A DNA stretch of 64,000 nucleotides from Hygrophila difformis (Eukaryota > Streptophyta > Magnoliopsida > Lamiales > Acanthaceae), in NCBI GenBank assembly GCA_030278955.1, contig JAOANR010000005.1:3515431-3579430 (forward strand), in the 5' to 3' direction. Below the pieces are notes generated by a model. That model saw only the letters and a list, made by a program, of their open reading frames with translations. It did no database searches and was not told the origin of the DNA. The stretch's first letter is position 1. Each line of letters begins with the position of its first letter. Below are positions 3,367-50,218 of the stretch, piece after piece. The position numbers were made by a program, and so were the translations under genes.

Positions 3367-3432
3367 TTGCCCCTTTTCCTTTATAACAAAGCTTCTCTGT
3401 TTTCACTGTTATCTCCATATGTTACCAGCAAT

Positions 3433-17555: not shown

Positions 17556-17603
17556 AATTCAAATTTCAAGGCCTGGGGGCCCATGGGCCTAGGGTTTCTC
17601 ACC

Positions 17604-17611
17604 TATAAATA
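17604..17611 (+). promoter_or_regulatory. TATA box of element B LTR
   Basis: TATAAATA in the context ctcacctataaatagagg is a strong plant TATA box inside the LTR. The same box recurs in the 3' LTR at 50433-50440. Transcription probably begins about 30 bases downstream. Confidence 0.75.
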
Positions 17612-18254: not shown

Positions 18255-18735
18255 TAGCTACAACGCTAACCGCCCTACGGCGCTATCCTTGGATAGCGTC
18301 GTAGGTGAGGTATAGCGCCGTAGTTGCCTAGAACTTAAACAAAATTTGCCCTACGGCATTAAACCAACGGCGCTATCCTCAGATAGCGTCGTAATTTCTG
18401 TTTAGCGCCGTAGGTCCCAAAAATTCCTCTATCTCACAGAATCCACCTACGGCATTATCCTTACGACGCTATCCTAGGATAGCGTCGTCATTTAACGTTT
18501 AGCGCCGTAGTATCCCTTCTTTTTTCAAAAACTTCTAATTTCTCAAACCACCTACGACGCTACACCTACGACGCTATACTAGTATAGCGCCGTAGTAGTA
18601 TATAGCGCCGTAATTACCCCCTTTTAATCCAAAATTTATTCTCTCTTGCACCAACCCATGACGACGCTACCCTCACGGCGCTATCCTAGGATAGCGCCGT
18701 AACATCTGTTTAGCGCCGTAATCAACATTTTCATG
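18255..18735. repeat. Array of five regularly spaced nested palindromes in element B LTR
   Basis: Five dyads (for example cgctatccttggatagcg) have centres near 18290, 18380, 18475, 18580 and 18687, spaced 90, 95, 105 and 107 bp. Most are flanked on each side by outer half-motifs (ctacggc... and ...gccgtag), giving two-tier palindromes of about 65 bp with AT-rich, unconserved spacers. The array lies about 690-1080 bp downstream of the TATA box, so it should be transcribed. The 3' LTR has the same array at 51085-51550. Confidence 0.88.
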
Positions 18736-24043: not shown

Positions 24044-27000
24044 GTATGGGGCTTTGTGATTTAGGATCGAGCATCAATGTGATGCCACTAGCTATGGCAA
24101 TCCGCCTTAAGCTTGGAGAGATTCAACCAATCAAGATGAGACTGCAACTCGCAGACAGATCAATCACTCAGCCCGTAGGAATCCTCAAGGATGTTGTGGT
24201 CAAAACTGGCCAGGTTCTCTTCCCGGTTGAATTCATTATCCTCGACATTGAAGAAGATTCTGAAATGCCACTTATCCTTGGACGCCCATTCCTGGCCACT
24301 GGTGGTGCACTAATTGACGCTAAATCTGGAAAGGTCACATTGAGGGTCGATGGCGAGGAAATCACCTTTGATATGGAACAGCTGCAGAAGTTTCCGAATG
24401 AAGGAGCTTGCTCCATGTTTTCTGTAAAAGATAGTGGAGAGAAAATTGATTGTGAGGAGAGAGAGCTTGACTCTGGACTTGATCATGAAATGATGCTGGA
24501 TGACCTATCAAAGCAGGTACTGAAGCCTGCTGGCATGGAGCACAAAGGATGCAAAGCCGTCCGCTTTGCCGATCCCGAAACAGGGGATTTGGAGGAGTTT
24601 GACGGCACAGACTTCCATGACGATGCCGACCAAGAGGAGGCGGATCCTGTACTGATGCAGGATCCGGAAGGTAAAACTGATCTTCTCCCATCTATTTCTC
24701 GCAAATTACTCCCTTCCGTTGAATTCCCACCTGAGCTTGAACTTAAAACATTACCCGATCATCTCAAGTACGCGTTTCTCGCAGAACATAAAAAATTACC
24801 TGTGATTGTTTCGGCTAAGCTCTCCCAAGAGCAAGAAAATGCTCTGGTGGTCGTTCTTAAAAATTATGTGCGTGCAATCGGTTGGACCATTTCTGATATC
24901 AAAGGAATAAGCCCTTATGTTTGTATGCACAGGATTTTAATGGAGGAGAATTTCAAGGCCTCTCGCCAGCCCCAACGAAGATTGAACCCACCCATGCAAG
25001 AAGTGGTAAGAAAGGAAGTGGTCAAGCTGTTAGACGCCGGTATTATATACCCGATTTCTGATAGCAAATGGGTCAGTCCTGTGCAGGTTGTTCCGAAGCG
25101 GGGTGGGATGTGCATTACGCAGAATGAACAAGGGGAGGAAATTGCCACGCGCCCAGTCACCGGATGGAGAGTCTGCATAGACTACCGGAAGCTGAACGAG
25201 GCAACTCGCAAGGACCATTTCCCTTTACCTTTTATCGATCAAATGTTGGAACGATTGGCGGGAAGGGCGTTTTATTGTTTTTTAGATGGTTATTCTGGAT
25301 ACAATCAAATAGTGATCGCCAGTGAGGATCACGAAAAAACTACCTTTACATGCCCCTATGGCACTTTTGCCTATAGGCGCATGCCTTTTGGATTATGCAA
25401 TGCACCAGCTACTTTTCAAAGATGCATGATGTCTATATTCTCTGAATTTATCGAAAAATGCATTGAGGTCTTCATGGATGACTTCTCTGTATATGGAGAT
25501 ACGTTTGATGAATGTTTGACTAATCTTGCTGAGATTTTAAAGAGGTGTGAGGACACTAACTTGGTTTTAAATTGGGAAAAGTGCCATTTTATGGTCACTG
25601 AGGGCATAGTGTTAGGACATCGCATTTCTCGTGCAGGCATCGAAGTTGATCCAGCCAAATTTTCCATCATTTCCAATCTTCCTCTCCCCAATTCTATCAA
25701 ATCAGTTAGGAGCTTCTTAGGGCATGCCGGTTTTTACCGGAGATTCATTAAGGATTTCTCTAAAATTGCCAAGCCGCTCACTAACTTGCTTTGTAAAGAA
25801 AATCCCTTTTTAATAAATGAAGCGTGTGTCCAAGCCTTTGACACGCTCAAGAAGATGTTGGTTTCTGCACCGATAGTGCAACCACCCGATTGGTCAATAC
25901 CTTTCGAGGTAATGTGCGATGCTAGTGGTCTCGTCATGGGCGCAGTTCTTGGACAACATAAGGACGTGAGACATTGCGTAATTCATTACGCAAGTCATGC
26001 CCTGAATGAGGCCCAAGTTAATTACACCACAACGGAGAAAGAAATGTATGTTGTGGTCTTCGCGTTTGACAAGTTCAGACAGTACCTTATAGGTACGAAG
26101 ACTATAGTATACACCGATCACTCTGCATTGAGATACTTGTTTAGCAAACAAGATGCCAAACCTCGATTAATCAGGTGGGTACTTCTGTTGCAAGAATTCG
26201 ACATCATAATAAAAGATAGGCGAGGTCGAGATAATGGTGTTGCTGACCACTTATCTCGATTAGATAATGATAAAAAGGAAAAAGCCGTCAATGAAGAGTT
26301 TCCGGACGAACAGTTGTTCGCATTGCATCTGCATAATCAAGCCTGTCCATGGTTTTCCGACATCGCTAACTTCTTGGCGTGCGGAATAACCCCACAGTTT
26401 TCGAACTATCATCAGAAGAATAAGTTCAAACGAGATGTATTAAGTTACTTCTGGGAAGAACCTTATCTCTTCAAACACTGCGCCGATTCAATAATCAGGC
26501 GATGTGTGACCGAGCATGAAGCCTATCAAATTGTCAGAAAATGCCATGAATCAGAATATGGAGGTCACCATGGTCCCGCTCGAACGGCCCACAAGGTCCT
26601 CGAATGTGGATTTTATTGGCCTCACATCTATGAGGATTGCAGGACATTTGTGAAAGGTTGCGACAAATGCCAAAGATTAGGAAACCTCTCCAAGAGGGAT
26701 GAGATGCCTCAAAAGGGAATTCTCACACTTGAGATTTTCGATGTATGGGGCATTGACTTCATGGGACCGTTTCCGCCATCTGGTGGAAACTACTATATCT
26801 TGGTAGCTGTCGATTACGTGTCCAAATGGGTCGAGGCTGTCGCATTACCGACCAATGATGGTAGCCAAGTCATCAAGTTCCTCAAGAACAACATTTTCAG
26901 TCGATTTGGCGTACCTAGGGTGGTGATATCTGATGGAGGAACACACTTTATTAATAAAGCTTTTGAAACTTTAATGAGTAAAAATGGAATCCTCCATAAG

Positions 27001-27438
27001 ATAGGCACGCCCTACCATCCCCAGACTAGTGGTCAAGTCGAGGTATCCAACCGCGAAATCAAACACATACTCGAAGCCACGGTCGGGATAACCCGCAAAG
27101 ATTGGGCATGTAAGCTCAATGATGCTCTATGGGCATACCGCACAGCATTTAAGACTCCCATTGGGATGTCCCCTTACAGACTTGTCTTCGGAAAAGCCTG
27201 TCATTTGCCTGTAGAGTTAGAGCATAAAGCTTACTGGGCCGTTAAAACGCTTAACTTCGATCCGAAAGTTGCTCAGAGCAAACAAAATTGGACCTCAATG
27301 AAATTGAGGAAATACGAGCGCTATCTTATGAAAGCTCTCGAATTTATAAGGAGCGGACCCAGAAGTTGCACGATCGCAGGATTAAGCCTAAGCACTTCTA
27401 TGTTGGTCAAAATGTATTATTATTCAATTCTAGGTTGA
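24040..27438 (+). CDS. Element B pol: protease, reverse transcriptase, RNase H, integrase
   Basis: The first codon here is GTG and was probably reached from gag before a frame break near 24000. The aspartic protease has the active-site motif [12 protein letters not shown] (about 24052-24087) and '[10 protein letters not shown]'. The reverse transcriptase (about 24990-25500) has '[11 protein letters not shown]', '[13 protein letters not shown]'-like and catalytic FMDD motifs. RNase H (25900-26280) keeps the CDAS, TEKEM, TDHS and [11 protein letters not shown] blocks. Integrase has an HHCC zinc finger (about 26520-26680) and the catalytic Asp (GIDFMGP, about 26755), Asp (SDGGTHF, about 26935) and Glu ([10 protein letters not shown], about 27040). 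A one-base loss near 27285 throws the C-terminal end into a wrong frame; the true continuation is at 27288-27635. All catalytic residues I checked are present. Confidence 0.9.
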
Positions 27439-27635: not shown

Positions 27636-28119
27636 GAAACAGCATTTAAATCATAAAAATTTCATTTCATAATACCTATATATGTGTTATTTTGTCAGAA
27701 AATATCCAAAGATCAATTAAACATTTAGAGTACTAAGACTCTAAATGTGAGGATGTTGATATTTGGAGAAAACTTGACCTAGTGGATATTTATCTGTCTT
27801 GCAGGAAATCTAGAACCACCAAAAAGAAGGAACAGAAAATAAAGAAGAAAGCCAGGTTCCCGATTGGATTAAGTCCATGAATTTAAAAAAATGATTTCGG
27901 AAATTAAAGCAATTTAAGGTCCGAAATAATTTTTGCAAACAAATGGAATTAATCCAACCTATTCATGCAAGTTTAGTTTAATTTAATTAGCCCATTAACA
28001 CACAAAAATGTTTTGAACTAAAATCTCTCAAGTCCAAAACAAATAAAACCAACTGAGGCCCAATTTCATCTACTCGGGCCCAGTTCGCATGAAAATTTTG
28101 AAAATTTCAAAATCCGAAG
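27636..28119 (+). other. Element B non-coding spacer after pol with hairpin and polypurine-like motif
   Basis: No protein. An 11-bp perfect hairpin (arms 27721-27731 and 27738-27748, loop actaag) runs into gtgaggatgt (27747-27756) and then TGATATTT. This mimics the layout of the real polypurine tract and LTR start at 32031-32044. The following stretch is homologous to the region next to the primer site in element C (45136-45520, opposite strand). Confidence 0.7.
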
Positions 28120-28375
28120 TACAACTACGACGCTATCCCCATCTACGACGCTATCCTCGGATAGCGCCGTAGTAATAGGATAGCGCCGTAGGGATCTTCC
28201 CCCACTTTTAGTCTATCTACGACGCAGTCCCTTAGAACGACGCTATCCTTGGATAGCGCCGTACTAAAGGCATAGCGCCGTAGTGCACCTTTCCATTCCC
28301 ACCACTCTACGACGCTAAACCAAGCCTACGGCGCTAGTCTAGCGCCGTAAGTTAAGTATAGTGTCGTAGAAACCC
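28120..28375. repeat. Palindrome array upstream of the F-box cassette promoter
   Basis: The same tagcgccgta/tacgacgcta motifs as in the LTR, with dyad centres near 28157, 28250 and 28338 (spacing 93 and 88 bp). The array stops about 10-50 bp upstream of a TATA box at 28386, the same arrangement as the upstream LTR cluster. Confidence 0.85.
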
Positions 28376-28385
28376 TTTTCTCACC

Positions 28386-28393
28386 TATAAATA
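28386..28393 (+). promoter_or_regulatory. Internal TATA box of the F-box cassette
   Basis: TATAAATA in ctcacctataaataccccacc matches the LTR promoter context (ctcacctataaatagagg), including the preceding cytosines. It lies 135 bases before the exon 1 ATG at 28521. The cassette therefore seems to have its own promoter, probably derived from an LTR. Confidence 0.65.
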
Positions 28394-28520: not shown

Positions 28521-30390
28521 ATGGACAGATTCCACAGAATCCTTCCAAACTTGGGACCCTTGCCCAGACCCGGACCATGGAGGGCAGGGTAAAACCCATG
28601 TCTTCCATCCTTGTTCATGGCCTCCATCGGAGTCTAGTGTTTTCTTTTTCTTCCCTTTCGGTTGAGAATACCACAATGTGGGTTGTGTTCACTTTTGTTT
28701 TTCTGTTTTGGGTACTGTTGCTCTCGGTTTTGAGGAATCCATTTGAAACCTTTTTGGAAACCCTTAAAACTTGTTTTTAAACGGGTTTAAAAAACTGTTA
28801 AAGTTTAGAGATTTTCTAAAGTTCAAAACTTGAAGGGATAAACCGATGAATATTAGGGTGCTGTTTAGAGCACCATGATATTGTTAGTTTTTCTATTTTT
28901 GAGTCCTTGACAAAGAAAAATTGAGTTTTTGGTGTTTTTGTTCAAAACCTTGTTTTTGATCTTGTTTTGTATACTTGCAGTGTTGTTTTGAAACATTAAA
29001 GGTGGAAGATCCTTTTTGGCATATCTGCTTTTACTGTCTCAAAATCTTTTGGAATAAGTGTCACCTTATTTTTGGAAACATGGTACAAGCACCCAATAGG
29101 GGCTTGCCACTTTTTCAAAAGAAAGTGACCTTATGAAAAAGACAAAAAGAGTATTAGATTTAATATTTGACTTATGTTCCCAATGGAACTGTAGTGTGAG
29201 TAAATAGCAGTATTTTTGTCACCCAACTGCTATTCTTTTCGAAAATCCAAAATGGGACCACTCACATCCCACTTTCATTAAATAAAATAAGTCAACCCTA
29301 AAAAAAAATTAAATTAAAAAAATATATATATAGTGTTTGCAAATTTTTGGATGTTTTAACTGTCCAAGACAGTCCAGGCAGTCCAGAATAGCAGATCCAT
29401 TACGCCACGCCTTCATTGCACATTCCAATTTCGAGCATCCATTCCTTTCGCTCCATCTCATCCCATTTTCAACAAGTGTCTCGGACTTGTTTAATAAAAC
29501 TGGAAAATCAAGTTTTTGGGCCCGCTGGCCCATTAAAAAATACATAGGGGCCTAATGACCCCTATCATTTCATAAAAAATTATATTACCCATGCTTTTTA
29601 TTAAAATTCAAGTTGGAAACTTAATAATCTCACATTTAGAGCAAAACTCTAAATGTGAGGATGTTGGTTTCTAAACTTGAATAATTTCCAAGAAATCATA
29701 AAAATTGGATTCATCACTTCTTATCTTTTCAGGGGCAATCTTCCAAACCCAGACCCAGTGCCCGGAAGAACCCAGCTGCTGGACCTTCCGCTAGAGCTTC
29801 TAGGAGAAATTCTCTCCCGAATCGGGGAGGATGAAATAAAAGAAGTGTTCAGAGCTAGGAGAACTTGCACGAAACTAAGGGACGCAGGAAACCTTGCCAT
29901 CGTTTACAGGCGATGCGAGTTCGATGCAGCTAGGGTGAGGCACTGGCAGGAGGAGATACGAAGGCAGAAAGAAAGATTTCTGCACACATGCACTGAGGCT
30001 GGAAACTTTAATCTCCAAATTGTTCCAGCACTCATGGCATTTGTAGAAGGGGATGAAGAGCAAGCATGCGAGCTGCTACGGCCAGGCATCGAAGACAATC
30101 ATAAAGCGTCAGTCCTCACCCGCGGACTGATGCTCATGAGCAAGCTGGATGAAGGCCAGGTCAATCAGGGGATCGCAATGATAGAGATGATGGTGACCAA
30201 TCGAGAGGTTTTCAACTACACATCCACCAACACCCTCGCGTGGATGGCAGACAATCATGCTCCCTACTTGTTTGCAGGGCAACCACCCCGAGTTTTCTGC
30301 AGAAGGATGCATCCACCCCTGAGAAACCGCGACTGGTGCCTGCGCTGTGAGCTGACCAGCTACGTCCACTGGCTCAGATACATGTTCTGA
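28521..30390 (+). CDS. Retrotransposon-borne F-box protein (two exons: 28521-28588, 29733-30390)
   Basis: Predicted 241 residues, probably a substrate receptor for an SCF (SKP1-cullin-F-box) ubiquitin ligase. Exon 1 (68 nt) begins at an ATG and is rich in Pro, Arg and Leu. The donor GGCAGG|GTAAAA and acceptor tcttttcag|GGGC join in frame. Exon 2 starts with PNPDPVPGR and then an F-box: LLDLPLELLGEILSRIG (about residues 38-54), with the typical continuation 'EVFRARRTCTKLRDAG'. The middle (RFLHTCTEAGN..., then 'ACELLRPGIEDNHKAS') resembles the degenerate Sel1-like part of plant F-box proteins of the At2g35280/At1g67340 type. The Cys/Trp-rich end (DWCLRCELTSYVHWLRYMF) recalls their C-terminus. 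These comparisons are from memory of the family. The frame is intact although gag-pol is not. It occupies the position where Athila elements often carry an env-like gene. Splicing is inferred, not shown. Confidence 0.72.
29629..29664 (+). promoter_or_regulatory. Hairpin and polypurine-like motif in the F-box intron
   Basis: Perfect 13-bp arms ctcacatttagag and ctctaaatgtgag with a five-base loop overlap gtgaggatgt (29655-29664). The motif lies 68 bases before the splice acceptor. A counterpart lies 77 bases before the acceptor of the element C cargo gene. Confidence 0.75.
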
Positions 30391-32040: not shown

Positions 32041-32438
32041 TGATAATGGCCAGAAATGACCATTATTTTCAATCCATTTCCGTGTCTGAAACGGGCATTT
32101 GATCGCATTTCGGTCTTATATTAAATAAGAAAGCAGTCGAATTGGACTGATTCATGCATAATTGTAAAAACATTGAGCTGATATGAAAAATGCATAAATG
32201 TGTAATTTTATTACACATTTATGTTAGAAAAATCCAAAAAACATGAGAAAAAGAAAAGAAAAGAAAAAGGAAATGAAAAGATGGGAAAAGAAATGAAAAA
32301 CCCACAAAAAGTTGATTTTTCAGGATATTACGACGCTAGACACAACTACGACGCTATGCATGGATAGCGCCGTAGCTTGGTCTAGCGCCGTAGGAGGAAG
32401 CCAAAGCAGCAGTCTGAAGAGGAGCGGACGGCGCTAAG
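32041..32438 (+). repeat. Element B 3' LTR, first part
   Basis: The first 398 bases of the 3' LTR match 16991-17388 with few differences. It is cut by element C after ctaag (32434-32438) and resumes at 50219. Confidence 0.93.
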
Positions 32439-35269
32439 TGAAACTTTTGACAATTTCCGTCCCACGAGCTTTTGCTAAAATTATACCAGGTTAGATTTAT
32501 TACAAGAAAAGAGTTATGATTCACGGGAAAGGGTTTAGGGGTACATCAAGATTGTTAGTCTTTTTATTACTCAAGTGTGGTGCTTCAATTTCAAATGGCG
32601 CTGTGGTCCTCCCTGTCATGAAATGTTGACAAATCTCATGGCATAGCCGGGATAGGTTGACCTTCAGCCTGTCACACTGAGGATCCCCGGCAAGTATGCC
32701 ATGATACTTCTCATCAATTCTTGGCATGAGAGTTCCTGCCATGAAACTCTTGGCAAGTTCCCACTACATGAGTATTTTCCGAAAAGTTATGGTCCTGGTT
32801 TAGATTTTATTTAATGAAACCAATTTATGATGGCGGAGTTGTGATTAGGGATATAATTATACGTACGTAGTCACGTTTTTATTGCTCGGAGTTAAGAAAC
32901 TGTGCTCCCGAAAGCGCACGGTGTCAAAAATTGCAGTAATTTATAGTAAGACCGGATCGTTCACTGGAGGATGTGCGATAGAAGCAGGTCCCACGTCATT
33001 TACTAAGATTTTCCACTCGGTTACTCGAATCAGGTTTGGGATATGACTAACAACTACTTGACAGAGTTTAAATCAGATTAAGAAAGCAATTAAAAATAAA
33101 GCAGATAAAAGTATTCTAGAAAGCGAATTAGATTTAATCTAAGAAAGCAGTAAAATTAATCTAAGAAAGCGATTAAGATTATTCTAAGAAAGCAGATTTA
33201 AATGAGACAGAAAGGACAGGAAGAAAATAATGAAGATTGGACAAGATTCAGATGAAACATAGTTAAACTTCCATTTTGTTACACAGATCTTAGCTTGGGA
33301 TAATCCGTTCAGTTAGCTAATTCTCATGCTCTCTGTACCATGTTCCCTTTAACAGACAGGTACTTACAGGAAGAGTTTACATGCTCTTTAAGAAAATAAA
33401 TTCTAAGATACCACAGACGCATAACCACCCTTGCAATGCATTGCTAAGGTATGTTAATTATCTGTGGTGGACAAGCAACACCTGACAAATCATTTATTGA
33501 GGTGTCAAGTACCGTTATCATTCCCCCATGTCACACCCAAAGATTCTAATTAAGCCCTGAACTATCCCTTAACTCTCAGTCCTAGTAGCAGTTACACAAC
33601 TCTCAATACAACCGAGTGACCTCTAAAGAAAGCAATTAAAAGAAAGCAGTAAAGAAAGCATTTAAAATCCTATCACTCGGAGGTTTTTGAAAGTCTGACC
33701 CTGGTAGTAAAAGAAAGCCCCCAGTCAGAATGACCGGATGTGGATCAAGAATTCCCTAATCTCGGTGAACCGCTCGCAGTGTTCACTTCCCTTCGGGTGG
33801 TTATGAGATACAAACTAATGAAACGAACTAATAAATTAGTCGTTCCGGATGCACTCACCCAGGACTCAAAAGTAGGCTTTGGTAGAAGAAGATAGCAGTT
33901 GAAAGAATACTCAACCCTACCTTAGAAAATACCCAAGGCCTAAATGTTGTTCCTCTAGTATTATCTGTCACACCTTATCAGAATCCAAGTGGAATCTGAC
34001 CCAGTGTAATATTTAATACAAGATTTCCAACAACCAGCAATTTTGGAAAATAATAAATCTGAAAATCATTCCCTATCAGGTACTAGACTCTCAATAAGAA
34101 CACAGACCCTTTCAGTCTAGGTGAGACCTAATCGCTGACTCTGCTTCTAATTTCCCAAAATCAACCCCCAGTCGGATTATGAATTAGTCATAACTGTCGA
34201 ATTTATCCCTTACTCAGATCCGGATTTTATAAAGGAATTTTTGTTGGAAATTTATTACGAAACATCTGATTTAAGTCAAGACTTCTATGTCCAAGGGAAG
34301 GATCCCAAAATAATATTGACCACAATATCTACATAATAATATCATGCATAAATTTATAAGGAAGTGTAAAATAAAATAACCCAAAATATAAGGTGGGTTT
34401 AGACAGAATGTGAAACACAGAGATGAAATAGCCGGAGATGAGAAGAATTTATTTGGCCAAAAAGATGACAAAAATGATCAGGAGGATCCGGACTGCAAAC
34501 ATCTGCTATCCAGGTCCTGATCATTTCAGGTGGGATGACTTTTAGACAGTGGGATGCCTCAAATGACAGTTGCCGCCGTCATCTCAGACTCCACTATCTG
34601 TGAATTTGGATAAAAACCCACATGTTCTATTACTGCAATAATAATTAGATGACATTGGCATATGTCATCTAAAATTACTACAGCTCCAGATTCAGGTTTG
34701 AAATTAAAGTAAGAAAAGAAAACTGTATCCGGATGGGAGTCAGCTGAGCAGCTATTATAATCCCGGAGGGATGAACCGCCAAGGCTTCCACCGGCCACTA
34801 TCCAGACCATGCAAAATAACATCTAATAATTAATATACAGACCACGAGCTAGTTATCCGTGTGGGAATACCCGCCAACATTAATCTGATATATTCCTTAT
34901 TAGCTGTTTCACACAACACGGGAAAAGACAAAATAAATAAAAGAAAAATATTTTTGGGTCATCTTGCATGAGAGACATTGGTTTCTCATGCAAGGTATGG
35001 AATTAAATCCACAATTACTCTTCATGTCTAAATAATCGCTCATTCCATAATTAATTAATTAATTAATTACAGTCCAGATTATATACTTAGATCATTAGAG
35101 TTTAATCATTTGTAGAAGAATCTTTTAATGGGAAATTAAACAAAGTTCTTTATATCAATTTAATCATGGGTTGAGATCATTGGATTTCAACCTCAAAATA
35201 TTAATATAAAGGTTCAATTAGTTAATGGGGTGAGATGAAGAATGAAAGCTTGGCAAAAGGCGCCACCTT

Positions 35270-35750
35270 GTCGCGATACAGGGTTCGTGTCACGGAGCAT
35301 GGCTCCGCGACAAAGATTTCGCGACAGAGGGGTGGGAAATAAGAGAAATGGAATTTTGAAAGTTTGGGGTTTGTTTTGTCGCTAAGTAAAGAAAATTTTG
35401 TCGCGGAACGTGGTTCCGCGACAAGGGCATAGCGATAAAAAGGTTGAAAATTGGACAAGGCATAATTCTTGTCGCGGAACAAGAGATTTTGGCGCGGAAC
35501 GTGGTTCCGCGACAAGGTTGCTTCGCGACAAAGCCCTTCCAGAATAAAATCACAAGTATTTGGGTCCTTGGTCGCTAATCAAGATTTTGTCGCGGAACGT
35601 GGTTCCGCGCCAAGGGGTGTTTCGCGACCAAGGGTTTTAAAAATAATGGTCAACAAATGTTCTTTGGCACCTTTGTCGCCAAAGCATCACTTTGTCGCGG
35701 AACGTGGTTCCGCGACAAGGGTTGTACCGCGACAAAGGTGTGTCCAGTAC
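35270..35750. repeat. Array of five palindromes in element C LTR
   Basis: Five dyads built on tgtcgcggaacgtggttccg have centres near 35300, 35411, 35502, 35600 and 35705, spaced 111, 91, 98 and 105 bp. Several have outer half-motifs (tttgtcgcgga / tcgcgacaaag), giving the same two-tier plan as element B. On the element strand the array spans about 660-1070 bp downstream of the TATA box, almost the same distances as in B. The other LTR has it at about 48494-48975. Confidence 0.88.
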
Positions 35751-36359
35751 ACATGTCAGAAAAGTAGAGTGGAACAGTGGCATGCATTATGTGTGATCTC
35801 ACCCATTTCAGATTCAAAAGCTAAACTAAGCTTAAAATAACAAAACAGAATTTGAATCTAGCTAGAACATGCTTGAACAAAATAGAAATAAAGCAAACTT
35901 AAAACTTAAGAAACCCTAATCTAAGCTTGATCATCCATAAGCATGCAACATTATCCAAAGAAAAAGTTACCAAGCAGTAACATTAAAATGCAAAACGAGG
36001 ATCAAATGACCCAAGGAAGATGAAAACAGTAAGATCCATGGGGTGTGAGACCCATTTCATGATTTTGGGACACAAATGGAGAATGTTTTCCCATATTATT
36101 AAACGGTGTTGTTCATACTCATGGTTTGAGTACCACAAACCTTTAAACAAAAGTTTAGAACAAAAACAAAGTATAAAACTGGCTATCTAATCAAAGTGCA
36201 GTAAACTATTTCTAAACAGTGCATAAATTAAATAATACAAAAGAAAACCTAACTAAACTACCCTAAACTACACTAAACTACTGAACTTCCCAACTTGTCT
36301 TCAAGAAGGTGTAGTTTTTCTAAAATTCTTCCAACCTCTAGCTCAAAGGAAACACCTCA

Positions 36360-36367
36360 TATTTATA
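36360..36367 (-). promoter_or_regulatory. TATA box of element C LTR
   Basis: On the minus strand this reads TATAAATA, at the same place relative to the upstream motif cluster (36430-36690) as in element B. Copy in the other LTR at about 49584-49591. Confidence 0.7.
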
Positions 36368-36429
36368 GAGGGGAAACCCTAAGCTCATGGGCCTTGATAT
36401 GAGCCCATTGTGTCTCAAGACATCACACA

Positions 36430-36690
36430 CATCACAGCTTTGTCTCGGAGCACCAAGTTTGGTCGCGGAACACACTGCATGTGGCAAAGCTTCTCGACTG
36501 GGTCTTGTGTCTCTAAAAATGTATCTTGGTCGCGGAATGGACCTTTGTCGCGGAACAGCACATCGCGACAAAGGTATCGCGCCAAGGGGCTTTGGCTGGT
36601 CTCTTCTTCATCTGGGCCACTTGGTCGCGGAGTGTTCCTTTGTCGCGGAACCATGCATCGCGCCAAGGGGCTTCCGCGACAAAGGTCTTC
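36430..36690. repeat. tgtcgcgga motif cluster upstream of the element C LTR promoter
   Basis: About ten copies of gtcgcgga / tcgcgac-type motifs in both orientations lie immediately upstream (element sense) of the TATA box. This mirrors the tagcgccgta cluster in element B. Copy in the other LTR at about 49654-49914. Confidence 0.82.
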
Positions 36691-36989
36691 CTGGGCCTGC
36701 TGGATTGGGCCAGATGGGCCGAAAATATTCTTTTTGTGGGCTTTTCTCTCTTTTTCCCATCTTTTTCATTCCTTTCTCTTTTTCTCGTGTTTTTGGATTT
36801 TTCTAACATAAATATGTAATAAAATTACATATTTATGTCTTTTTCACACCAGCTTATTATTTTTACAATTATGCATAAATCAGTCCAATTCGACTGCTTT
36901 CTTACTTAATGTAAGACCGGAATGCGATCAAATGCCCGTTTAAGACACGGAAATGGATTGAAAATAATGGTCATTTTTGGCCATTATCA

Positions 36990-38655: not shown

Positions 38656-41331
38656 TCAGGGATCGCCATCTTTCTTCTCGTCTGATTTCTTGGAGGAGCC
38701 AGCTTCATCAGGGATCTTCTTAAGTAAGGTTTGCAGGAGCTGATTTTGGCTAAGGATCAGTGATTCCACCATTTTTCGATTCTTCTCTTCTTTTTCCAGC
38801 ATCATCATTCTGAATTCCTCGTCTCTCCTTTCCTTCTCCAACTTCTCCTTCCGTTTCTCTTCCTTTTCTCTCCTACGCTCCTCGCGTTCCTCTTCTCTCT
38901 CCCTCCTTCGCTCTTCACGCTCCTCTTCTGCCCTTTTCTGCTGTCCCTCTTGGCTTGCCAAAATTACATCAGTCATGGATTTCATTCCCTCGAGCATAGA
39001 CTGACTCATTCTGCTCACCATCTCAATCGTTTGGGAATCAGCAGGGAACTGAGATACATTCTGGCTTTGAGGAGGCATCTGAGGTGGAGGTTGAGTCGGA
39101 GGTGGGATTGGAATCTCAGTCCGTTCTTGGTCCGCAGGAGGCTCCTCTCGAACATTCGAAGGTCCTGCATCAGCACAGGTGTTTTGTGTTCCCTTCTTTG
39201 TCTTCGGCTGCCTCTTTCGCTTCCTTGATGCCTGCTCACCCGATATGAAGGAGGATTGAGCGTCTGAATCTCCTCTGACGGACAGTTGGGGAAGGGAATA
39301 TTTGATGCTCTCACATAAAGGAAGTCTTGGCACACTGATAGGTGGGTTCACCTTCACCACTGTGTCGCCCTCAAACGCGCTCAAATCAACTCCCTGAGCT
39401 ATGCAGATTCTCCTAATCATATTCGGATAACACAGCACCTGTCTATCCTTTATGCGGGTTATCATCACCTCGAATACATGCCTCCCTACATTAAGTTTTG
39501 CTCCGCTCCACATTCTTGCAAATCCCATTAACACATTTCCAGATGTGGTGTGCGGATGCGAGTTGGGCCGGATCTTGGACATGTAGAACTCATAGGTTGG
39601 CATGAATTGTATCCGCAGCCATTTTGCATTGAATGTGTGTCCAGGGGCGGTCACGCTTGTCATGCTGTTAGCCAATGTTGCATACTTCGCATATTCAGTC
39701 GTTTTGGCTCTCTTTGTCATGATCTCACCAGGGGGAAATTCGCTTTGAATCTCTGGAGTCCCGAAGAACTGGTTCAGCCAATCAGGTGCAATGTTGATCA
39801 CTTGTCCCCGGATCCATGTTGTTCTGGCAGCTTCATCGATGTTGCAGAAGAATTCCTTTGTTAGCTCCACGAAGCCATCTTCGTCATGATGCAACATGAA
39901 GTTACCCCACTCTTGATTTCTGTAGAAAGTTTCAACAGTGGGGTGTGACAACGCATCGGGTCTGAACCCTTTATCTGGCACTATCATCTTCTGCAACTTC
40001 TTATACTTCTCTGCATTCTCCTTGTTGACATTGAACTTGATCTGGATCTGTTCTTCACTTAGCTTTTTCTTCCCATATTCTTTTGAGACGCCCATTCTTT
40101 GCCTTACAGTGTTTTCAGACCAAAACTCGACTGGTCGAATGGATCCGACGGACTCGTCATCGCTTGTGTGCCAGTCTGTTTGATCGTCTCCCTCCTGTGG
40201 CTGGTCATCCCTTGGTTCAGCCTCATTTCCCCTCTGACTTGGCTCTCGCTCTCCATGACCTGTTTCATCTCCGACTTCCTCCTCAACCTGTTTAATTACA
40301 TGTTTCATCGTATTGAGTTCACAATTTACAGGTAAAGAGGATGTAGTTACATGAAAATTACGGTCATCAACATCAGTTGATACCTCCTCCTCCTCCCTAA
40401 TTCTTGCAGCTCGTCCAACTGGACGTTGGAAAATAGGCGCCATTTGGTTCATGAATTCTTGCTCCTCCTGACGAGCTTCTTCTTCCGAATCATTCCCATC
40501 TGCAGCTTCAGTCAAAATTCCTTGAACCTTTTCTTTAAGTGCAGAGGTCATGAGAGGGTCGTCTGGCTGCTTTTCCAAGGTTTTGGCCAGTGTTACTGGA
40601 TCTATGGAATCTTGCGGTCCTTCTGACTGCTCAGGCTGGTGAGACGGGCCTCCTTGAGTGATGAATTCTTCAATTCTGGCCGTGCCCACGAGAGGATCGA
40701 TCACTTGACCTACTTTTGTCTGATATTTGATTTGATGTGGCTTTTCTCCAGCATCGATTCTTGTTTCGATCTGTTCATTAAGCCTTTTCCTTATATCCCC
40801 TCGGATGGTCTCAGCATCATGTGCAGTGGGGCCAGTCCATGCAGGAGGTTGTTCTTCTTTGATTTTCAAACCACGCCCCTGCACTTCTCCAGTGATCTTC
40901 AGCTCAAAGTCCTCCTCATTACCCCGCTCAACCTCTCCAGATTTCCTGCTTTCCAGCTCAGCCTGCATCTTTCTGGCAGTTTCTTCATCCTTTGTCTGCT
41001 GGATATTCTTTCGGATCTGCTCTTCCTCTGCAGCTTTCTTTTCCATTTCCAGGCGTTCTTCCTCAGTTAATTTTTCTATTCCCGAACCACCTGTTACTTG
41101 ATCCAGCAAACCAGCTAATGCAAGCTCTTCATTGTGCATCTTCATGGCTAGCTCAGCATCGGATATCACCTGGTGCTTCTTTTTCGGGGGTGGCGGCGGC
41201 ATTGGCTTTTTACCTCTGTCCTTAGGATCCGTGGGCTCTGCCACTTTCCTAACAGTTGGTTCCGGTTCCTTGATCTCCACTTTCTTTTCCGGAGCCCTTG
41301 CTGGCTTGTCCTTATCAGCGGACCTTATCAA
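38656..41331 (-). CDS. Element C cargo protein, C-terminal portion
   Basis: 891 residues from the first TTG; the frame is open back to the TGA at 41482-41484, so it probably continues the protein encoded at 41482-42696. The first 400 residues are charged and low-complexity (Pro-, Glu- and Lys-rich, with coiled-coil stretches). Residues about 430-680 form a compact-looking domain with 'FYRNQEWGNF', 'TTWIRGQVINIAPDWLNQFFG' and 'CYPNMIRRICIAQGVDL'. This resembles the 'putative plant transposon protein' family (Transposase_32 type) often found in Athila-like elements; the assignment is from memory. The tail has a nuclear-type basic run (RKRKRQPKTKK), a Pro-rich part and a long Arg/Glu coiled coil. 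Function unknown. It is not gag, and no reverse transcriptase or transposase catalytic motif is visible. Confidence 0.7.
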   Translation of the reverse strand: MIRSADKDKPARAPEKKVEIKEPEPTVRKVAEPTDPKDRGKKPMPPPPPKKKHQVISDAELAMKMHNEELALAGLLDQVTGGSGIEKLTEEERLEMEKKAAEEEQIRKNIQQTKDEETARKMQAELESRKSGEVERGNEEDFELKITGEVQGRGLKIKEEQPPAWTGPTAHDAETIRGDIRKRLNEQIETRIDAGEKPHQIKYQTKVGQVIDPLVGTARIEEFITQGGPSHQPEQSEGPQDSIDPVTLAKTLEKQPDDPLMTSALKEKVQGILTEAADGNDSEEEARQEEQEFMNQMAPIFQRPVGRAARIREEEEVSTDVDDRNFHVTTSSLPVNCELNTMKHVIKQVEEEVGDETGHGEREPSQRGNEAEPRDDQPQEGDDQTDWHTSDDESVGSIRPVEFWSENTVRQRMGVSKEYGKKKLSEEQIQIKFNVNKENAEKYKKLQKMIVPDKGFRPDALSHPTVETFYRNQEWGNFMLHHDEDGFVELTKEFFCNIDEAARTTWIRGQVINIAPDWLNQFFGTPEIQSEFPPGEIMTKRAKTTEYAKYATLANSMTSVTAPGHTFNAKWLRIQFMPTYEFYMSKIRPNSHPHTTSGNVLMGFARMWSGAKLNVGRHVFEVMITRIKDRQVLCYPNMIRRICIAQGVDLSAFEGDTVVKVNPPISVPRLPLCESIKYSLPQLSVRGDSDAQSSFISGEQASRKRKRQPKTKKGTQNTCADAGPSNVREEPPADQERTEIPIPPPTQPPPQMPPQSQNVSQFPADSQTIEMVSRMSQSMLEGMKSMTDVILASQEGQQKRAEEEREERRREREEEREERRREKEEKRKEKLEKERRDEEFRMMMLEKEEKNRKMVESLILSQNQLLQTLLKKIPDEAGSSKKSDEKKDGDP

Positions 41332-41481
41332 CCTTCTCCTCGTTCCCGGTTGAGGTGCTGGCTGATGACCTTCAGATGTAACAACAGCAGTGGAGGGTTT
41401 CTCGGGCTGTGTGGGTGCCTTAGTGGTGGCAGGTGCTACAGCAGATGTTGTCGTTTCAGTCTGAGCTGTCTGTACTGGACA

Positions 41482-42696
41482 TCAGACTGCTTCTTGCTGC
41501 ACCACTGGCTCGGTCGTAGCAACTCTTTGTACTTCGGTCTGCCCTCTAGGCAGCAAAGCTGAAGCTTGTACTGCTGGCTGGGTAGGCTGTGGGTTGGCCT
41601 CAGGGGGGGTGGAGAAGTATGCATCAATCTCAGCGTCAGGATCCTCTTCCCTGTTCGGTTCACCCTCGTAGCCTAGTTGCTTCTCGGCGCGCTGCAAATA
41701 ATCCTCAATAAAACTCCTTTGAGAGATTCTCCTCAGTTGGTCCTCCCAGTCCTTCTTGATCTTGGAGCAGAACTTACTCCGAACATTGTTGTTATAGTGC
41801 AAGACCTTCTTTCCATTAGCAGTACTGTTGCAGTATTCCAGTGCAAACTTGTCCATCTCCATGATCAATTCCCAGTAGGAGTCCCTGTACTGATCTATCA
41901 TGCCCCCTACCAGATCCTTTTGAATCCCTTCCAGGTAGGACATGTCTTCTGCCGAATCGTACGTGAGATACATCTCAGCCTCAGCTTTTGATAGCAAATT
42001 GAACTGCCTTTCATTTTTCCTTTTGGGTTTCCAGCCACCTTTGCGTATATCCACTTGTAGCTGATCCCTTAGTACTGCTATGTGCTGGGGAAATTCATCA
42101 TCTTTGTTCGTCCCGTACTGTCCATACTTTCTGTGTGTGAAGATGGTTTCAAGTACCTCATCTGCAGGTAGTACTACTCCTTCTTCCAGAAAGGACTCAG
42201 TGATACTTGGATTGCCTTTTCCCCAGACAGTAGTCAGGTCGTCCCATTGTTCGCTTGCATCCTTGATCATCTTCCTCATTGTGTTCAACAGTGAGGTGTT
42301 GCGGCTTTGCTCAAACTTCTCAGCATTTTTGAGGCGCTTGTACAGGTTGAAGATTAGCTCTCGATGCCTGGCTCGAGCTAGATCTGTAATCCACCTCTGC
42401 TCCACTGGTCCTTTTGCTTCAAACAGATACGGATTCCACTTAAATGGAAATGCCTCATACATCATGATGGCCCCACTGTTGATGACCCTACTTAGATCCA
42501 TGTATTTGTGTTCGAAGGCCATCCGAACTTGAGGATCTACGATCTGGTTAGGGATGATGATGTCGAAGTCAGCTATATTTGGATCTTTTGTTCCCTTTTC
42601 CACATGCCGATTCCACACAGCCCTGTGCTCTCTGAACCTCAATTGGATGCGCTCATGATGGACTTCAGGAGTTGTTTTTTTCGTCTTGGGGGGCAT
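41482..42696 (-). CDS. Element C cargo protein, middle portion
   Basis: 404 residues from an ATG, ending at a single TGA (41482-41484) beyond which the same frame stays open for another 2.8 kb. The sequence is largely helical and charged, with Trp-containing blocks such as 'SEQWDDLTTVWGKGNPS' and 'KKDWEDQLRRISQRSF'. It ends in a Pro/Gln/Thr-rich linker that continues past the stop. No family is recognised with confidence. Its start overlaps the preceding exon frame by 32 bases at a run of six C residues, where loss of one base would join the two frames. It may therefore be the middle of one broken gene rather than an independent gene. Confidence 0.6.
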   Translation of the reverse strand: MPPKTKKTTPEVHHERIQLRFREHRAVWNRHVEKGTKDPNIADFDIIIPNQIVDPQVRMAFEHKYMDLSRVINSGAIMMYEAFPFKWNPYLFEAKGPVEQRWITDLARARHRELIFNLYKRLKNAEKFEQSRNTSLLNTMRKMIKDASEQWDDLTTVWGKGNPSITESFLEEGVVLPADEVLETIFTHRKYGQYGTNKDDEFPQHIAVLRDQLQVDIRKGGWKPKRKNERQFNLLSKAEAEMYLTYDSAEDMSYLEGIQKDLVGGMIDQYRDSYWELIMEMDKFALEYCNSTANGKKVLHYNNNVRSKFCSKIKKDWEDQLRRISQRSFIEDYLQRAEKQLGYEGEPNREEDPDAEIDAYFSTPPEANPQPTQPAVQASALLPRGQTEVQRVATTEPVVQQEAV

Positions 42697-44542
42697 ACCC
42701 CATCATCCTTATCCAAAACTTTTTCAGGAAGTGATAGTAGTCCCTTTCTATCGATGCAGCGACTATCGACCTTTCCTGTGGAGGAATATGCACGTCCCAT
42801 CCCGGAGAAAGTTTCAATTTTTCGTCTGTAGTGTGGTCCAGAGGCACCTTATAAACTGATTTGATGGCATCTCTTGCGTCCTTAATCTCTGTTCGATCAA
42901 TTGAGGCCTGGTTGCCAGCAGCCTCATATGTGCAGTCAGGCAACCCGATGCCTGAGTGCACTACCAATGCATTCCTGAAAAAGGGTTAAAGTGCTCAGAT
43001 ACATCCAGAATTTTTTATGAGTTTTCAAAGACTACTCAGGTGTGAAAACCAACATCCTCACATTTTGAGCTTTGCTAAGCTCGAAATGTGATTTAGGTGA
43101 ATTAATCTTGAGTTTATTAAAAGATCCAAAGATAAGGTACTTATGCTTTAGGACCTAGAAGGAGATAACTCAATTTATTGAGTCCAATCGAAAAAAGGGG
43201 AAAATAAAAATAAAATGAAGTGGTCATTGGACCAAAAATTCCTTTTTTAGTGGGCCATTGGGCCCAAAAGTTTGTTTTTCCAATTTTATTAAACAAGCTC
43301 GAGGCACTTGTTGAAAATGGGATGAGATGATGATGATGGAATGGAATGGCTCGAAAATGGAATGTGCAATGGAGGCATGGCGGGACGGATTCGCTATTTC
43401 CGGATTGTTTGGACTGTCATTGGACAGTTAAAACATTCAAGAAAATGCAAACACTATTTTTTATTTTTTTTTTTTAATTTTGAAAAGGTTGACTTGATTT
43501 TTATTTAATAAAAAGTGGGATGTGTGTGGTCCCATTTTTGGATTTTTGTAAAAAGGTAGCAGTTGAGGTGGCAAAATACTGCTACTTAACTCACACTCTT
43601 TAGTTCCATTGGGAACAAAAACACAATGTCAACCAAAATTCCTAGTACTATTTTGTCTTTTAGTGAAAAAGTGAAATCTGATGGAAAGGGGATTGGTGGT
43701 GGCGCAGGCTGCCCAAAACCAAACAAACATACACTTTACACAAATTGCCACACACCCTCAAATACTTGCCAAAATAGATCAGAGCCAACTTCCTCAGTCC
43801 TCCAACATACATACAAAAAAATCAAGCACAACAGCTTTGCATTTAATGTGGAGTAAAGAGGACAGTGGCATGCAAGCAACATGAGCAAAATGGAACACCA
43901 ACACAGGATCATGCCTTCATTCGAGCCAAAACATGGGATTAAAAACATTTTCATCCCTCACATATTCAAAAACCAAAAAATCGTTCATGCTCTATAATCA
44001 AGAAAATCAACAGCATATTGATACTCATGCAATATTCCTATGTTTATTAACTCTCACTTTTTCAAGAATTTTCAACAATCCAGGAGGAATCAAGATCAAG
44101 CAGACAAGACATGAGCATATGGACTAGAACAAACAAAAGCAAAAGAATCTTAAAACTCAAAACCCACAACCATGGCGGAATCTACCACTGCCAAACCCTA
44201 GCCTTCATGGAATCAAAATTTCTAAAACCCCTAACGCTTCTATCTGTGCCCCTGCATCAACCAACCAAAGTACCAAACCCCAACACCACACTCGGCCATT
44301 GACGATAAAAACAGGGAATCGAAATCCATACATGCCCAATACACAGAACCACTAAAATTGAAAGTCAACTAAGTGAAAACAACCATGAGGAGGCCCATTA
44401 ACACATTATCGAGAGTAATAACGCAAGAATCCCCAAAATCACAAAAACAGGGCAGTGGTTCGCGTACGAAAAGTGTGGGGAATGCTTACCAAGGCTCGGT
44501 TTGCTTCGGAGAAGACGAAGATGAGGGTTCTGATGGTTCCAT
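42665..44542 (-). CDS. Element C cargo gene 5' end (exons 44490-44542 and 42665-42974)
   Basis: Exon 1 (53 nt) starts at an ATG at 44542-44540 and is Ser/Pro-rich. The donor CCTTG|GTAAGC and acceptor cctttttcag|GAATGC join in frame to an exon reading NALVVHSGIGLPDC... and ending 'DYYHFLKKFWIRMMGYAPQDEKNNS'. The layout (short exon 1, long intron with hairpin motif, long exon 2) matches the F-box cassette of element B. Exon 2 probably once ran on into 42696-38656. Splicing is predicted, not shown. Confidence 0.6.
43052..43090 (-). promoter_or_regulatory. Hairpin and polypurine-like motif in the element C cargo intron
   Basis: Arms 43059-43072 and 43077-43090 (14 bases, one mismatch) overlap acatcctcac (43052-43061), which on the element strand is gtgaggatgt. 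It lies 77 bases before the splice acceptor, equivalent to 29629-29664 in element B. Confidence 0.75.
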
Positions 44543-44714: not shown

Positions 44715-45135
44715 TGGGCCGGTCGCGGAACCCTAGCCCATGGTCGCGGAACAGGATTACGCGACCAGGCTTGGCGACATTAGAGGTGTCGCGGAGTGTG
44801 GGACTCTGTCGCGGAGTCACGCACCGCGACAAAGTGTACCGCGACAAAATGGCGAGGAAGAAGGGAGTGGTGTGTCCGTGTCGCGGAATAGGAACTCTGT
44901 CGCGGAGTCATGCTCCGCGACAAGATGTTCCGCGACAAGGACAGGCAGAGTTTAGGGATGAGTATAACTTTGTCGCGGAATTTGCACATGGGCGCGATGC
45001 TGGGCATCGCGACAAAATGATCACTCCGCGACAAAGACAAACAAGGGTTCAGAGGTGAGTGAGATTTTGTCGCGGAATTGTACTTGGTCGCGGAACGTTG
45101 TTCCGCGACAAAATGGTCAGTCCGCGACAAACTTT
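44715..45135. repeat. Palindrome array upstream of the element C cargo gene
   Basis: Dyads of the gtcgcgga...tccgcgac type have centres near 44819, 44910, 45002 and 45098, spaced 91, 92 and 96 bp. A further degenerate pair lies near 44730-44770. The array sits directly upstream of the cargo gene on the element strand, as 28120-28375 does in element B. Confidence 0.85.
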
Positions 45136-45644
45136 TTGAATTTTCAAATTTTCAACGGATTGGGCCCGAGTGTGATATTGGGCCTGCGTCCATTTTATTT
45201 GAGTTGGACCTGAATGAATTCAGTCCAAGTAAATTCAAATCATTGGGCCATTATTTAAAATAATCTACTCGCATAAAATTAGGTCGGGTCAGTTCCATTT
45301 ATCTGCAAGATTTATTCCGGATCTTAAATTTCTTTAAATTCCGAAAATAATTTCTCAGATTTGTGGAATTTTCCCAACCAAGAACCTGGTTTTCCTTGCT
45401 TTTTCTGCTCCTTCTTTTTGGTTGGTTCCGAATTTCCTGCAAGACAGATAAATACCCATTAGGTTAGGTTTTCTCCTCAGTTCAACATCCTCACATTTAG
45501 AGTCTTGGTACTCTAAATGTTCAATTAATCTTGAGGGTACTTTTTCTGTTCTGAATTAAATATATATTACATTAAACTAGACTAATCTAAGCTAATCTAG
45601 GAGTAATCAGGAGTGTAATCTTCTTAATAAATGACGCTGCATCC
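45136..45644 (-). other. Element C leader, homologous to element B post-pol spacer
   Basis: Non-coding. A perfect 11-bp hairpin (45493-45503 with 45510-45520, loop cttggt) overlaps acatcctcac (45485-45494). Arms and flanks match 27721-27756 of B. This adjacency to the primer site shows that gag and pol are missing from element C. Confidence 0.75.
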
Positions 45645-45662: not shown

Positions 45663-48600
45663 TGAAACTTTTGACAATTTCCGTCCCACGAGCTTTTGCT
45701 AAAATTATACCAGGTTAGATTTATTACAAGAAAAGAGTTATGATTCACGGGAAAGGGTTTAGGGGTACATCAAGATTGTTAGTCTTTTTATTACTCAAGT
45801 GTGGTGCTTCAATTTCAAATGGCGCTGTGGTCCTCCCTGTCATGAAATGTTGACAAATCTCATGGCATAGCCGGGATAGGTTGACCTTCAGCCTGTCACA
45901 CTGAGGATCCCCGGCAAGTATGCCATGATACTTCTCATCAATTCTTGGCATGAGAGTTCCTGCCATGAAACTCTTGGCAAGTTCCCACTACATGAGTATT
46001 TTCCGAAAAGTTATGGTCCTGGTTTAGATTTTATTTAATGAAACCAATTTATGATGGCGGAGTTGTGATTAGGGATATAATTATACGTACGTAGTCACGT
46101 TTTTATTGCTCGGAGTTAAGAAACTGTGCTCCCGAAAGCGCACGGTGTCAAAAATTGCAGTAATTTATAGTAAGACCGGATCGTTCACTGGAGGATGTGC
46201 GATAGAAGCAGGTCCCACGTCATTTACTAAGATTTTCCACTCGGTTACTCGAATCAGGTTTGGGATATGACTAACAACTACTTGACAGAGTTTAAATCAG
46301 ATTAAGAAAGCAATTAAAAATAAAGCAGATAAAAGTATTCTAGAAAGCGAATTAGATTTAATCTAAGAAAGCAGAAAAATTAATCTAAGAAAGCGATTAA
46401 GATTATTCTAAGAAAGCAGATTTAAATGAGACAGAAAGGACAGGAAGAAAATAATGAAGATTGGACAAGATTCAGATGAAACATAGTTAAACTTCCATTT
46501 TGTTACACAGATCTTAGCTTGGGATAATCCGTTCAGTTAGCTAATTCTCATGCTCTCTGTACCATGTTCCCTTTAACAGACAGGTACTTACAGGAAGAGT
46601 TTACATGCTCTTTAAGAAAATAAATTCTAAGATACCACAGACGCATAACCACCCTTGCAATGCATTGCTAAGGTATGTTAATTATCTGTGGTGGACAAGC
46701 AACACCTGACAAATCATTTATTGAGGTGTCAAGTACCGTTATCATTCCCCCATGTCACACCCAAAGATTCTAATTAAGCCCTGAACTATCCCTTAACTCT
46801 CAGTCCTAGTAGCAGTTACACAACTCTCAATACAACCGAGTGACCTCTAAAGAAAGCAATTAAAAGAAAGCAGTAAAGAAAGCATTTAAAATCCTATCAC
46901 TCGGAGGTTTTTGAAAGTCTGACCATGGTAGTAAAAGAAAGCCCCCAGTCAGAATGACCGGATGTGGATCACGAATTCCCTAATCTCGGTGAACCGCTCG
47001 CAGTGTTCACTTCCCTTCGGGTGGTTATGAGATACAAACTAATGAAACGAACTAATAAATTAGTCGTTCCGGATGCACTCACCCAGGACTCAAAAGTAGG
47101 CTTTGGTAGAAGAAGATAGCAGTTGAAAGAATACTCAACCCTACCTTAGAAAATACCCAAGGCCTAAATGTTGTTCCTCTAGTATTATCTGTCACACCTT
47201 ATCAGAATCCAAGTGGAATCTGACCCAGTGTAATATTTAATACAAGATTTCCAACAACCAGCAATTTTGAAAAATAATAAATCTGAAAATCATTCCCTAT
47301 CAGGTACTAGACTCTCAATAAGAACACAGACCCTTTCAGTCTAGGTGAGACCTAATCGCTGACTCTGCTTCTAATTTCCCAAAATCAACCCCCAGTCAGA
47401 TTATGAATTAGTCATAACTGTCGAATTTATCCCTTACTCAGATCCGGATTTTATAAAGGAATTTTTGTTGGAAATTTATTACGAAACATCTGATTTAAGT
47501 CAAGACTTCTATGTCCAAGGGAAGGATCCCAAAATAATATTGACCACAATATCTACATAATAATATCATGCATAAATTTATAAGGAAGTGTAAAATAAAA
47601 TAACCCAAAATATAAGGTGGGTTTAGACAGAATGTGAAACACAGAGATGAAATAGCCGGAGATGAGAAGAATTTATTTGGCCAAAAAGATGACAAAAATG
47701 ATCAGGAGGATCCGGACTGCAAACATCTGCTATCCAGGTCCTGATCATTTCAGGTGGGATGACTTTTAGACAGTGGGATGCCTCAAATGACAGTTGCCGC
47801 CGTCATCTCAGACTCCACTATCTGTGAATTTGGATAAAAACCCACATGTTCTATTACTGCAATAATAATTAGATGACATTGGCATATGTCATCTAAAATT
47901 ACTACAGCTCCAGATTCAGGTTTGAAATTAAAGTAAGAAAAGAAAACTGTATCCGGATGGGAGTCAACTGAGCAGCTATTATAATCCCGGAGGGATGAAC
48001 CGCCAAGGCTTCCACCGGCCACTATCCAGACCATGCAAAATAACATCTAATAATTAATATACAGACCACGAGCTAGTTATCCGTGTGGGAATACCCGCCA
48101 ACATTAATCTGATATATTCCTTATTAGCTGTTTCACACAACACGGGAAAAGACAAAATAAATAAAAGAAAAATATTTTTGGGTCATCTTGCATGAGAGAC
48201 ATTGGTTTCTCATGCAAGGTATGGAATTAAATCCACAATTACTCTTCATGTCTAAATAATCGCTCATTCCATAATTAATTAATTAATTAATTACAGTCCA
48301 GATTATATACTTAGATCATTAGAGTTTAATCATTTGTAGAAGAATCTTTTAATGGGAAATTAAACAAAGTTCTTTATATCAATTTAATCATGGGTTGAGA
48401 TCATTGGATTTCAACCTCAAAATATTAATATAAAGGTTCAATTAGTTAATGGGGTGAGATGAAGAATGAAAGCTTGGCAAAAGGCGCCACCTTGTCGCGA
48501 TACAGGGTTCGTGTCGCGGAGCATGGCTCCGCGACAAAGATTTCGCGACAGAGGGGTGGGAAATAAGAGAAATGGAATTTTGAAAGTTTGGGGTTTGTTT

Positions 48601-50213: not shown

Positions 50214-50218
50214 CTAAG

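Follow-up and report, generated by a model that had tools for sequence, protein, structure and literature searches.

Two motif dialects on one palindromic array layout in sister LTR elements suggest a separate DNA-binding partner for each group

How can two homologous LTRs keep the same arrangement of palindromes while the palindromes themselves are spelled differently? This question is raised by a 64,000-bp stretch of the Hygrophila difformis genome, here called the window (positions 3,515,431-3,579,430 of its contig; genome size 915 Mb), in which LTR elements lie nested inside each other. A Copia-type element is interrupted by element B on the plus strand, with the target duplication ACAGG, and the 3' LTR of B is interrupted in turn by element C on the minus strand, with the target duplication CTAAG. 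Both insertions are young, since the paired LTRs are 99.0-99.2% identical in B (compared in two pieces) and 99.7% identical in C. The insertion point of C lies within a dyad of B's own cluster I (CTAAG copies at 32434-32438 and 50214-50218), in keeping with the preference of LTR elements for palindromes that the title of a published study reports. The features referred to below are:

14640-15608 and 55620-56588: LTRs of the Copia-type element (LTR comparison; copia gag domain)
16991-21522, plus strand: 5' LTR of B, 4532 bp, TG...CA
17278-17545, plus strand: cluster I of B, a half-site array upstream of the TATA box, its last site starting 68 bp from it
17604-17611, plus strand: TATA box of the B LTR (TATAAATA)
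18258-18721, plus strand: cluster II of B, five units around dyads 18290-18688, half-site CTACGRCGCTA(TCC)
21962-27438, plus strand: gag and pol ORFs of B (Retrotrans_gag, RVT_1, RNase H, integrase)
27709-28112: conserved post-pol block of B, preceding cluster III
28125-28369, plus strand: cluster III of B, with three dyads; an internal TATA box (28386-28393) follows after 45 bp
29659-30390, plus strand: cargo ORF of B, F-box and plant TPR protein, 243 aa from stop to stop, under purifying selection
32041-32438, plus strand: first piece of the 3' LTR of B, with part of cluster I, interrupted here by C
50214-54353, plus strand: remainder of the 3' LTR of B, with clusters I and II again (sites 50225-51551)
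32439-36989, minus strand: 3' LTR of C
35268-35735, minus strand: cluster II of C, with half-site TTGTCGCG(GAAC) and five dyads flanked by outer half-sites
36360-36367, minus strand: TATA box of the C LTR (TATAAATA)
36459-36682, minus strand: cluster I of C, half-sites in quartet order, 99 bp upstream of the TATA box
38656-42702, minus strand: cargo of C, two adjoining ORFs of 406 and 941 aa, PF20167 (Transposase_32) in the second
44740-45131, minus strand: cluster III of C, internal, adjoining the post-pol block; no TATA match within 200 bp
45134-45532: conserved post-pol block of C
45663-50213, minus strand: 5' LTR of C, with clusters II (48492-48959) and I (49683-49906) again

Element B has the two LTRs, the target duplication, the gag and the protease-RT-RNase H-integrase order of a Ty3/Gypsy element (Pfam; the protease match scores below the curated cut-off), and from its gag-pol-extra ORF layout we take it to be a candidate member of the Athila lineage. 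A search for gag-pol domains among the ORFs of C found none.

With 11-nt arms and at most one mismatch as the dyad criterion, the stretch 35240-35760 of C contains the five dyads that the original prediction had placed there (centres 35300, 35411, 35502, 35600 and 35705; spacing 91-111 bp), whereas 200 shuffles of this stretch yield 0.015 dyads on average and never more than 1. The other structural claims hold as well: B also has five dyads, centred from 18290 to 18688; the TATA-to-dyad distances are about 687-1085 bp in B (TATA at 17604) and about 663-1068 bp in C (TATA at 36367, minus strand); and the flanking LTR sequences are homologous, with 78% identity along about 2.8 kb and 86% in the initial 280 bp. 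The prediction had described this cluster II alone, but B and C each contain two more clusters of their own motif. In both elements the conserved LTR start is followed by cluster I, the LTR TATA box and cluster II, in this order, and cluster III stands after the conserved post-pol block and before the extra gene. Within the window, all 62 B half-sites (at most one mismatch) fall inside B and 64 of the 66 C half-sites inside C, an intact LTR of either element holding 25 to 27 of them. Dyad centres number seven in the 5' LTR of B (at looser stringency) plus three in its cluster III, and five per LTR in C plus cluster III. The dyads of B cluster I are weaker, with 10-nt arms, and in C cluster I a dyad search that allowed one mismatch in arms of 10 or 11 nt found none.

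Exact palindromes occur 11,840 times (C) and 3,391 times (B) genome-wide, and reversed controls never. In viral contigs, the C palindrome had no match, the B core had two (L001, L002) that we take as chance, and an RT piece gave 13 pattern-matching stretches, none of which encodes a relative. We compared 34 loci (L007-L040), all on contig C1 and chosen because they contain exact C or B palindromes or lie next to such loci: 31 regions at the first listed palindrome places (L007-L037) and L038-L040, which were added later. L039 and L040 comprise the F-box part alone and are assigned to the B class by exact B palindromes nearby. With this choice of loci, other motif classes may be missed, and the sample offers no basis for class frequencies or for the absence of further classes. 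Clusters were present in 35 of 37 sequences (L007-L037 plus six window pieces), 12 of them B-class and 23 C-class; L011, which is unlabelled in one tree, and L037 were searched and had none. Several sequences are two LTRs or parts of one element, so that about ten B-class and about twelve C-class elements are independent. Across these, the layout is kept and the motif switched in concert, as had been proposed from the window.

The positions of the clusters relative to promoters recur among the relatives. A TATA match follows the end of cluster I by 97-100 bp in 13 of 18 C-class cases and by 68 bp in three of seven untruncated B-class cases; one case of each class has a longer distance (166 and 171 bp), and no match was found within 200 bp in four of the 18 and three of the seven. 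Cluster III is followed by a TATA match in all three B-class cases (45 bp in window B, 45 and 58 bp in two relatives), and a search over 200 bp gave no match in ten of ten C-class cases. The clusters are CpG-rich, with observed/expected ratios of 1.0-1.8 versus 0.54-0.95 for the entire sequences.

In 34 sequences of both motif classes, the repeated unit is mostly a quartet of half-sites (> > < <). The inner half-sites stand about 10 bp from the centre (spacing of the inner pair, > <, 17-23 bp) and the outer ones mostly 24-30 bp from it, in both classes. Correctly oriented outer half-sites at 22-32 bp from the centre number 40 on the left and 36 on the right for 50 inner pairs in the B class, and 82 and 74 for 122 inner pairs in the C class, where the count used TGTCGC alone and misses variant half-sites; half-sites pointing the wrong way within 45 bp number zero and four, respectively. 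Many units are incomplete, being short of one outer half-site. Within an array, the spacers of the units differ from each other and the sites agree. Cluster I of C keeps the quartet order without palindromic inner arms, and since no dyad passes there, this argues for recognition of half-sites rather than for hairpins. The purine position of the B motif is free on each arm (AC 8, AT 6, GT 6 and GC 6 among 26 distinct dyads), and such independent variation is expected under half-site recognition. As a counterpoint, dyads in clusters II and III of the C class have inner arms that vary (GGAAC, GGAGC, GATGC) yet remain largely complementary, which is more than plain half-site binding needs.

The two motifs had been described as unrelated, which is wrong, and one as having replaced the other wholesale, which our data do not support. 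Half-sites of both classes share a G.CGC core in one register, reading yTACGRCGCTA.nC-like in B (132 sites, 8 arrays) and yTTGTCGCGRA.C-like in C (152 sites, 10 arrays; most elements represented once), with the G and CGC columns fixed by the alignment anchor. G.CGC stands 10 bp from the dyad centre in both classes and is enriched about six-fold, with 16.5 and 15.2 occurrences per array versus 2.5 expected from base composition. Around it, five positions differ clearly between B and C and two more in part. When the motifs are masked, the B and C spacers align better forward than in reversed and reverse-complemented controls in 70 of 80 pairs (which share members), with z scores against shuffles from about 0 to 9.4; the B array of L035 ranges from -0.0 to 2.1 against C arrays (10 pairs). 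Many C-class outer half-sites moreover read TTTGTCGCTATGC, i.e. CGCTAT as in B's CGCTATCC, and could form a bridge between the two motifs. The common core and register, the alignable spacers and this possible outer-site bridge make it more probable that the motif was modified in place than that it was replaced.

Clear half-sites of the two dialects do not occur together. Clear B half-sites (264) are confined to the 12 B-class sequences and clear C half-sites (622) to the 23 C-class sequences, and none of the 35 mixes the two. Weaker half-sites number 9 (B-like) and 77 (C-like), six weak B-like sites lying in the C-class sequences L024 and L025. Among the 1172 clustered G.CGC sites, 200 have a mixed spelling, and 197 of these belong to C-class sequences. 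The block that follows cluster II has a different history: on its tree (30 rows) the motif class needs two changes, and a single B clade is rejected (p-AU 2.8e-27). All four combinations of motif and block occur (B-class rows, 4 B-like and 5 C-like blocks; C-class rows, 8 and 13), which means that this part of the LTR recombined between the classes. Class purity thus does not merely reflect a lack of exchange, because the block adjoining the arrays did recombine. One motif change suffices on the trees of the LTR start (23 rows, of which 5 are B-class; the support of 86 is not starred), the LTR end (16 rows, class B being the two LTRs of window B only) and the post-pol block (13 rows, 3 of class B); blocks under a length limit were dropped from the trees, e.g. 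the LTR end of L032 and the post-II block of L010. On the unrooted LTR-start tree, short C-motif elements fall outside the B-C split, which suggests that the C motif is the older one.

Two observations concern single regions. The integrase stretch of B (window 26700-27100) is 96-97% identical to the C-class loci L010, L014, L016, L018, L020 and L027, and elsewhere B is 88-90% (RT, five loci) and 84% (gag, three loci) identical to C-class elements; this stretch may be a locally shared or a strongly conserved module. At L038, which adjoins L030, an LTR has its start block (5453) only about 2.8 kb from its end block (about 2614) and may be a shortened member of a run of LTRs; the locus contains nine B-like half-sites (at most one mismatch) and no C half-sites.

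Whether motif class tracks cargo, as the original prediction had raised, has a divided answer in our sample: the kind of cargo does not track it, and cargo variants do so in part. Both classes include elements with gag-pol and an F-box ORF as well as gag-pol-less elements of the PF20167 type, which rules out the kind of cargo as determinant of the motif class. F-box ORFs or matches are found in the C-class gag-pol elements L009/10, L014, L016, L017/18 and L019/20, and B-class carriers are window B, L029, L039 and L040. F-box DNA is 83-99% identical within B, 82-97% among four C-class copies (L014 partial) and 73-80% between B and these four, so that eight of nine copies group by class; the exception is L017, which has the C motif and is 71-77% identical to all others. 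The sole B-class element of the PF20167 type in the sample, L031/L032/L037, lacks gag-pol between LTR end and post-pol block, and its ORF shares 42% protein identity with the 941-aa ORF of C. C-class copies of this type are 87-98% identical over the main matches, L023 having a stretch of 52%. F-box ORFs evolve under purifying selection: five ORFs, one of them partial, gave dN/dS values of 0.09-0.30 in 10 pairwise comparisons (L014, L029, L039 and L040 left out), and positive selection was not seen in these pairs. The extra ORFs yielded no match to a DNA-binding domain, and in a protein search with the 941-aa ORF none of 7985 scored candidates passed. Extra ORFs in plant LTR elements are the subject, as far as the available parts of these papers go, of PMC11963269 and PMC7264820.

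We consider it somewhat more probable than the contrary that the palindromes are cis-regulatory arrays for a sequence-specific DNA-binding factor, present in two compatibility classes. TATA proximity, CpG-rich clusters, conserved geometry and class purity amid recombination fit such arrays. A full unit would place four half-sites for binding of the factor as two cooperating pairs, and the partner might be encoded by the host or by the elements. With cluster I placed at the putative promoter of the LTR, cluster II beyond its TATA box and cluster III ahead of the extra gene (where B-class elements have a second TATA box), one factor could switch on, or keep unsilenced, both the element and its extra gene. 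The recognition sequence would have changed once in our sample, probably from C-type to B-type and in all three clusters, at about five to seven positions around the constant G.CGC core, leaving two compatibility classes. Elements with and without gag-pol of one class would then share one factor.

The most serious rival, which we regard as possible but doubtful, is neutral concerted evolution, in which template switching by RT and correction between palindrome arms would homogenise the repeats of an element lineage, so that a new motif would reach every cluster without selection by any partner. It can draw on arms that vary and stay largely complementary, on unit copies that are alike within an element, on the mosaic structure that documents exchange, and on the C-class outer half-sites that already read CGCTAT. 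However, homogenisation alone leaves unexplained why spacing and homologous cluster places were preserved through five to seven changes, and why spacers of the same array differ between units whose sites agree. Acquisition of the B-type arrays as a whole, by recombination from another element family, seems quite unlikely to us: the elements are modular, the inner motif differs strongly and the spacers of L035 show no similarity to C arrays when judged by shuffling, but most masked spacers align best forward, core and register are common to both classes, and three separate clusters would have had to be replaced.

Slightly less probable still, and in our view very unlikely, is a role of the dyads as hairpins in the leader RNA, serving packaging, translation or the production of small RNAs. 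The position of cluster II downstream of the TATA box and arms of at least 10 nt with short loops would suit hairpins, but cluster I lies upstream of the TATA box and, in C, has no palindromic inner arms. In transcript orientation (core columns fixed by the choice of units), G-U pairs and A-C mismatches number 10 versus 16 in 26 distinct B dyads and 18 versus 27 in 49 distinct C dyads; this absence of a G-U preference favours half-site recognition over hairpins, and we do not favour the hairpin as main function. A self-recognition system like that of VANC, in which the extra protein (PF20167-type or F-box/TPR) would read the quartets and have switched together with the sites into two exclusive groups, each with its own gag-pol-less partners, seems unlikely. 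To our knowledge, no such system is known in LTR retrotransposons, and our literature search for one found none.

Palindromic LTR regions of maize Sirevirus elements are reportedly treated in a 2016 study. In the available part of Bousios et al. 2010 (PMC2829016), the palindromic repeated motifs (RM) of Sirevirus (Ty1/Copia) elements are described as element-specific, high-copy dyads, nearly all with a CGG-CCG core, which lie in the LTR upstream of the TATA box and again upstream of the extra (ENV) gene, form CpG islands and vary in motif by element; they are stated there to be absent from the classic Copia elements studied. Like these, window B and C each contain eight or more copies of a palindromic motif, and cluster III of B, C and their relatives corresponds to the extra copies upstream of the extra gene. 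Unlike them, the gag-pol element here is Ty3/Gypsy by the Pfam domain order of B, the unit is a quartet, one cluster lies downstream of the TATA box, and sister elements form two classes of the same geometry. As far as these partial sources allow, Sirevirus RM are the nearest layout and VANC arrays the nearest evolutionary behaviour. The targets of VANDAL VANC proteins are short motifs (YAGTATTAY; AGTTGTCC/AC) clustered in non-coding repeats that change together between families (accessible parts of PMC5735166 and PMC10398659; the former does not call them palindromic, a term absent from it), and non-coding motif arrays altered in concert between families are also what we observe. VANC, however, is a known binding protein, whereas the partner here is putative, and VANDALs are DNA transposons. 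In Tnt1, U3 regulatory classes of the LTR diverge while coding modules stay similar (PMC1838419), a comparable modular LTR evolution, but a conserved geometry with an in-register motif change is not described in the available part of that paper.

Two dialects on one geometry, each in thousands of copies in one genome and with recombination alongside, constitute a natural experiment, and the dialect pair makes a possible co-evolution between transposon promoter motifs and a specific partner directly testable. These elements also bring Gypsy retrotransposons into the range of palindromic LTR arrays, alongside the Copia Sireviruses.

Further motifs occur beside the two dialects. Additional dyads with a different spelling (GTTGTGATCC..GGATCACAAC or close to it) at L008 2718-2750, L024 4280-4314 and L025 3122-3156 adjoin the C-type cluster II of short elements and perhaps represent a third motif class. 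Elsewhere in the window, an ORF at 3346-4521 resembles a plant matrix metalloproteinase, as judged from its translation alone, and the LTRs of a further element (5749-7779 and 12546-14568) include tandem arrays (7104-7472 and 13898-14259) whose repeat unit measures about 85 bp and contains GGCGC motifs. Three dyads on ACCGACCG/CGGTCGGT, with a core that is neither B's nor C's, lie within about 260 bp at 63347-63608.
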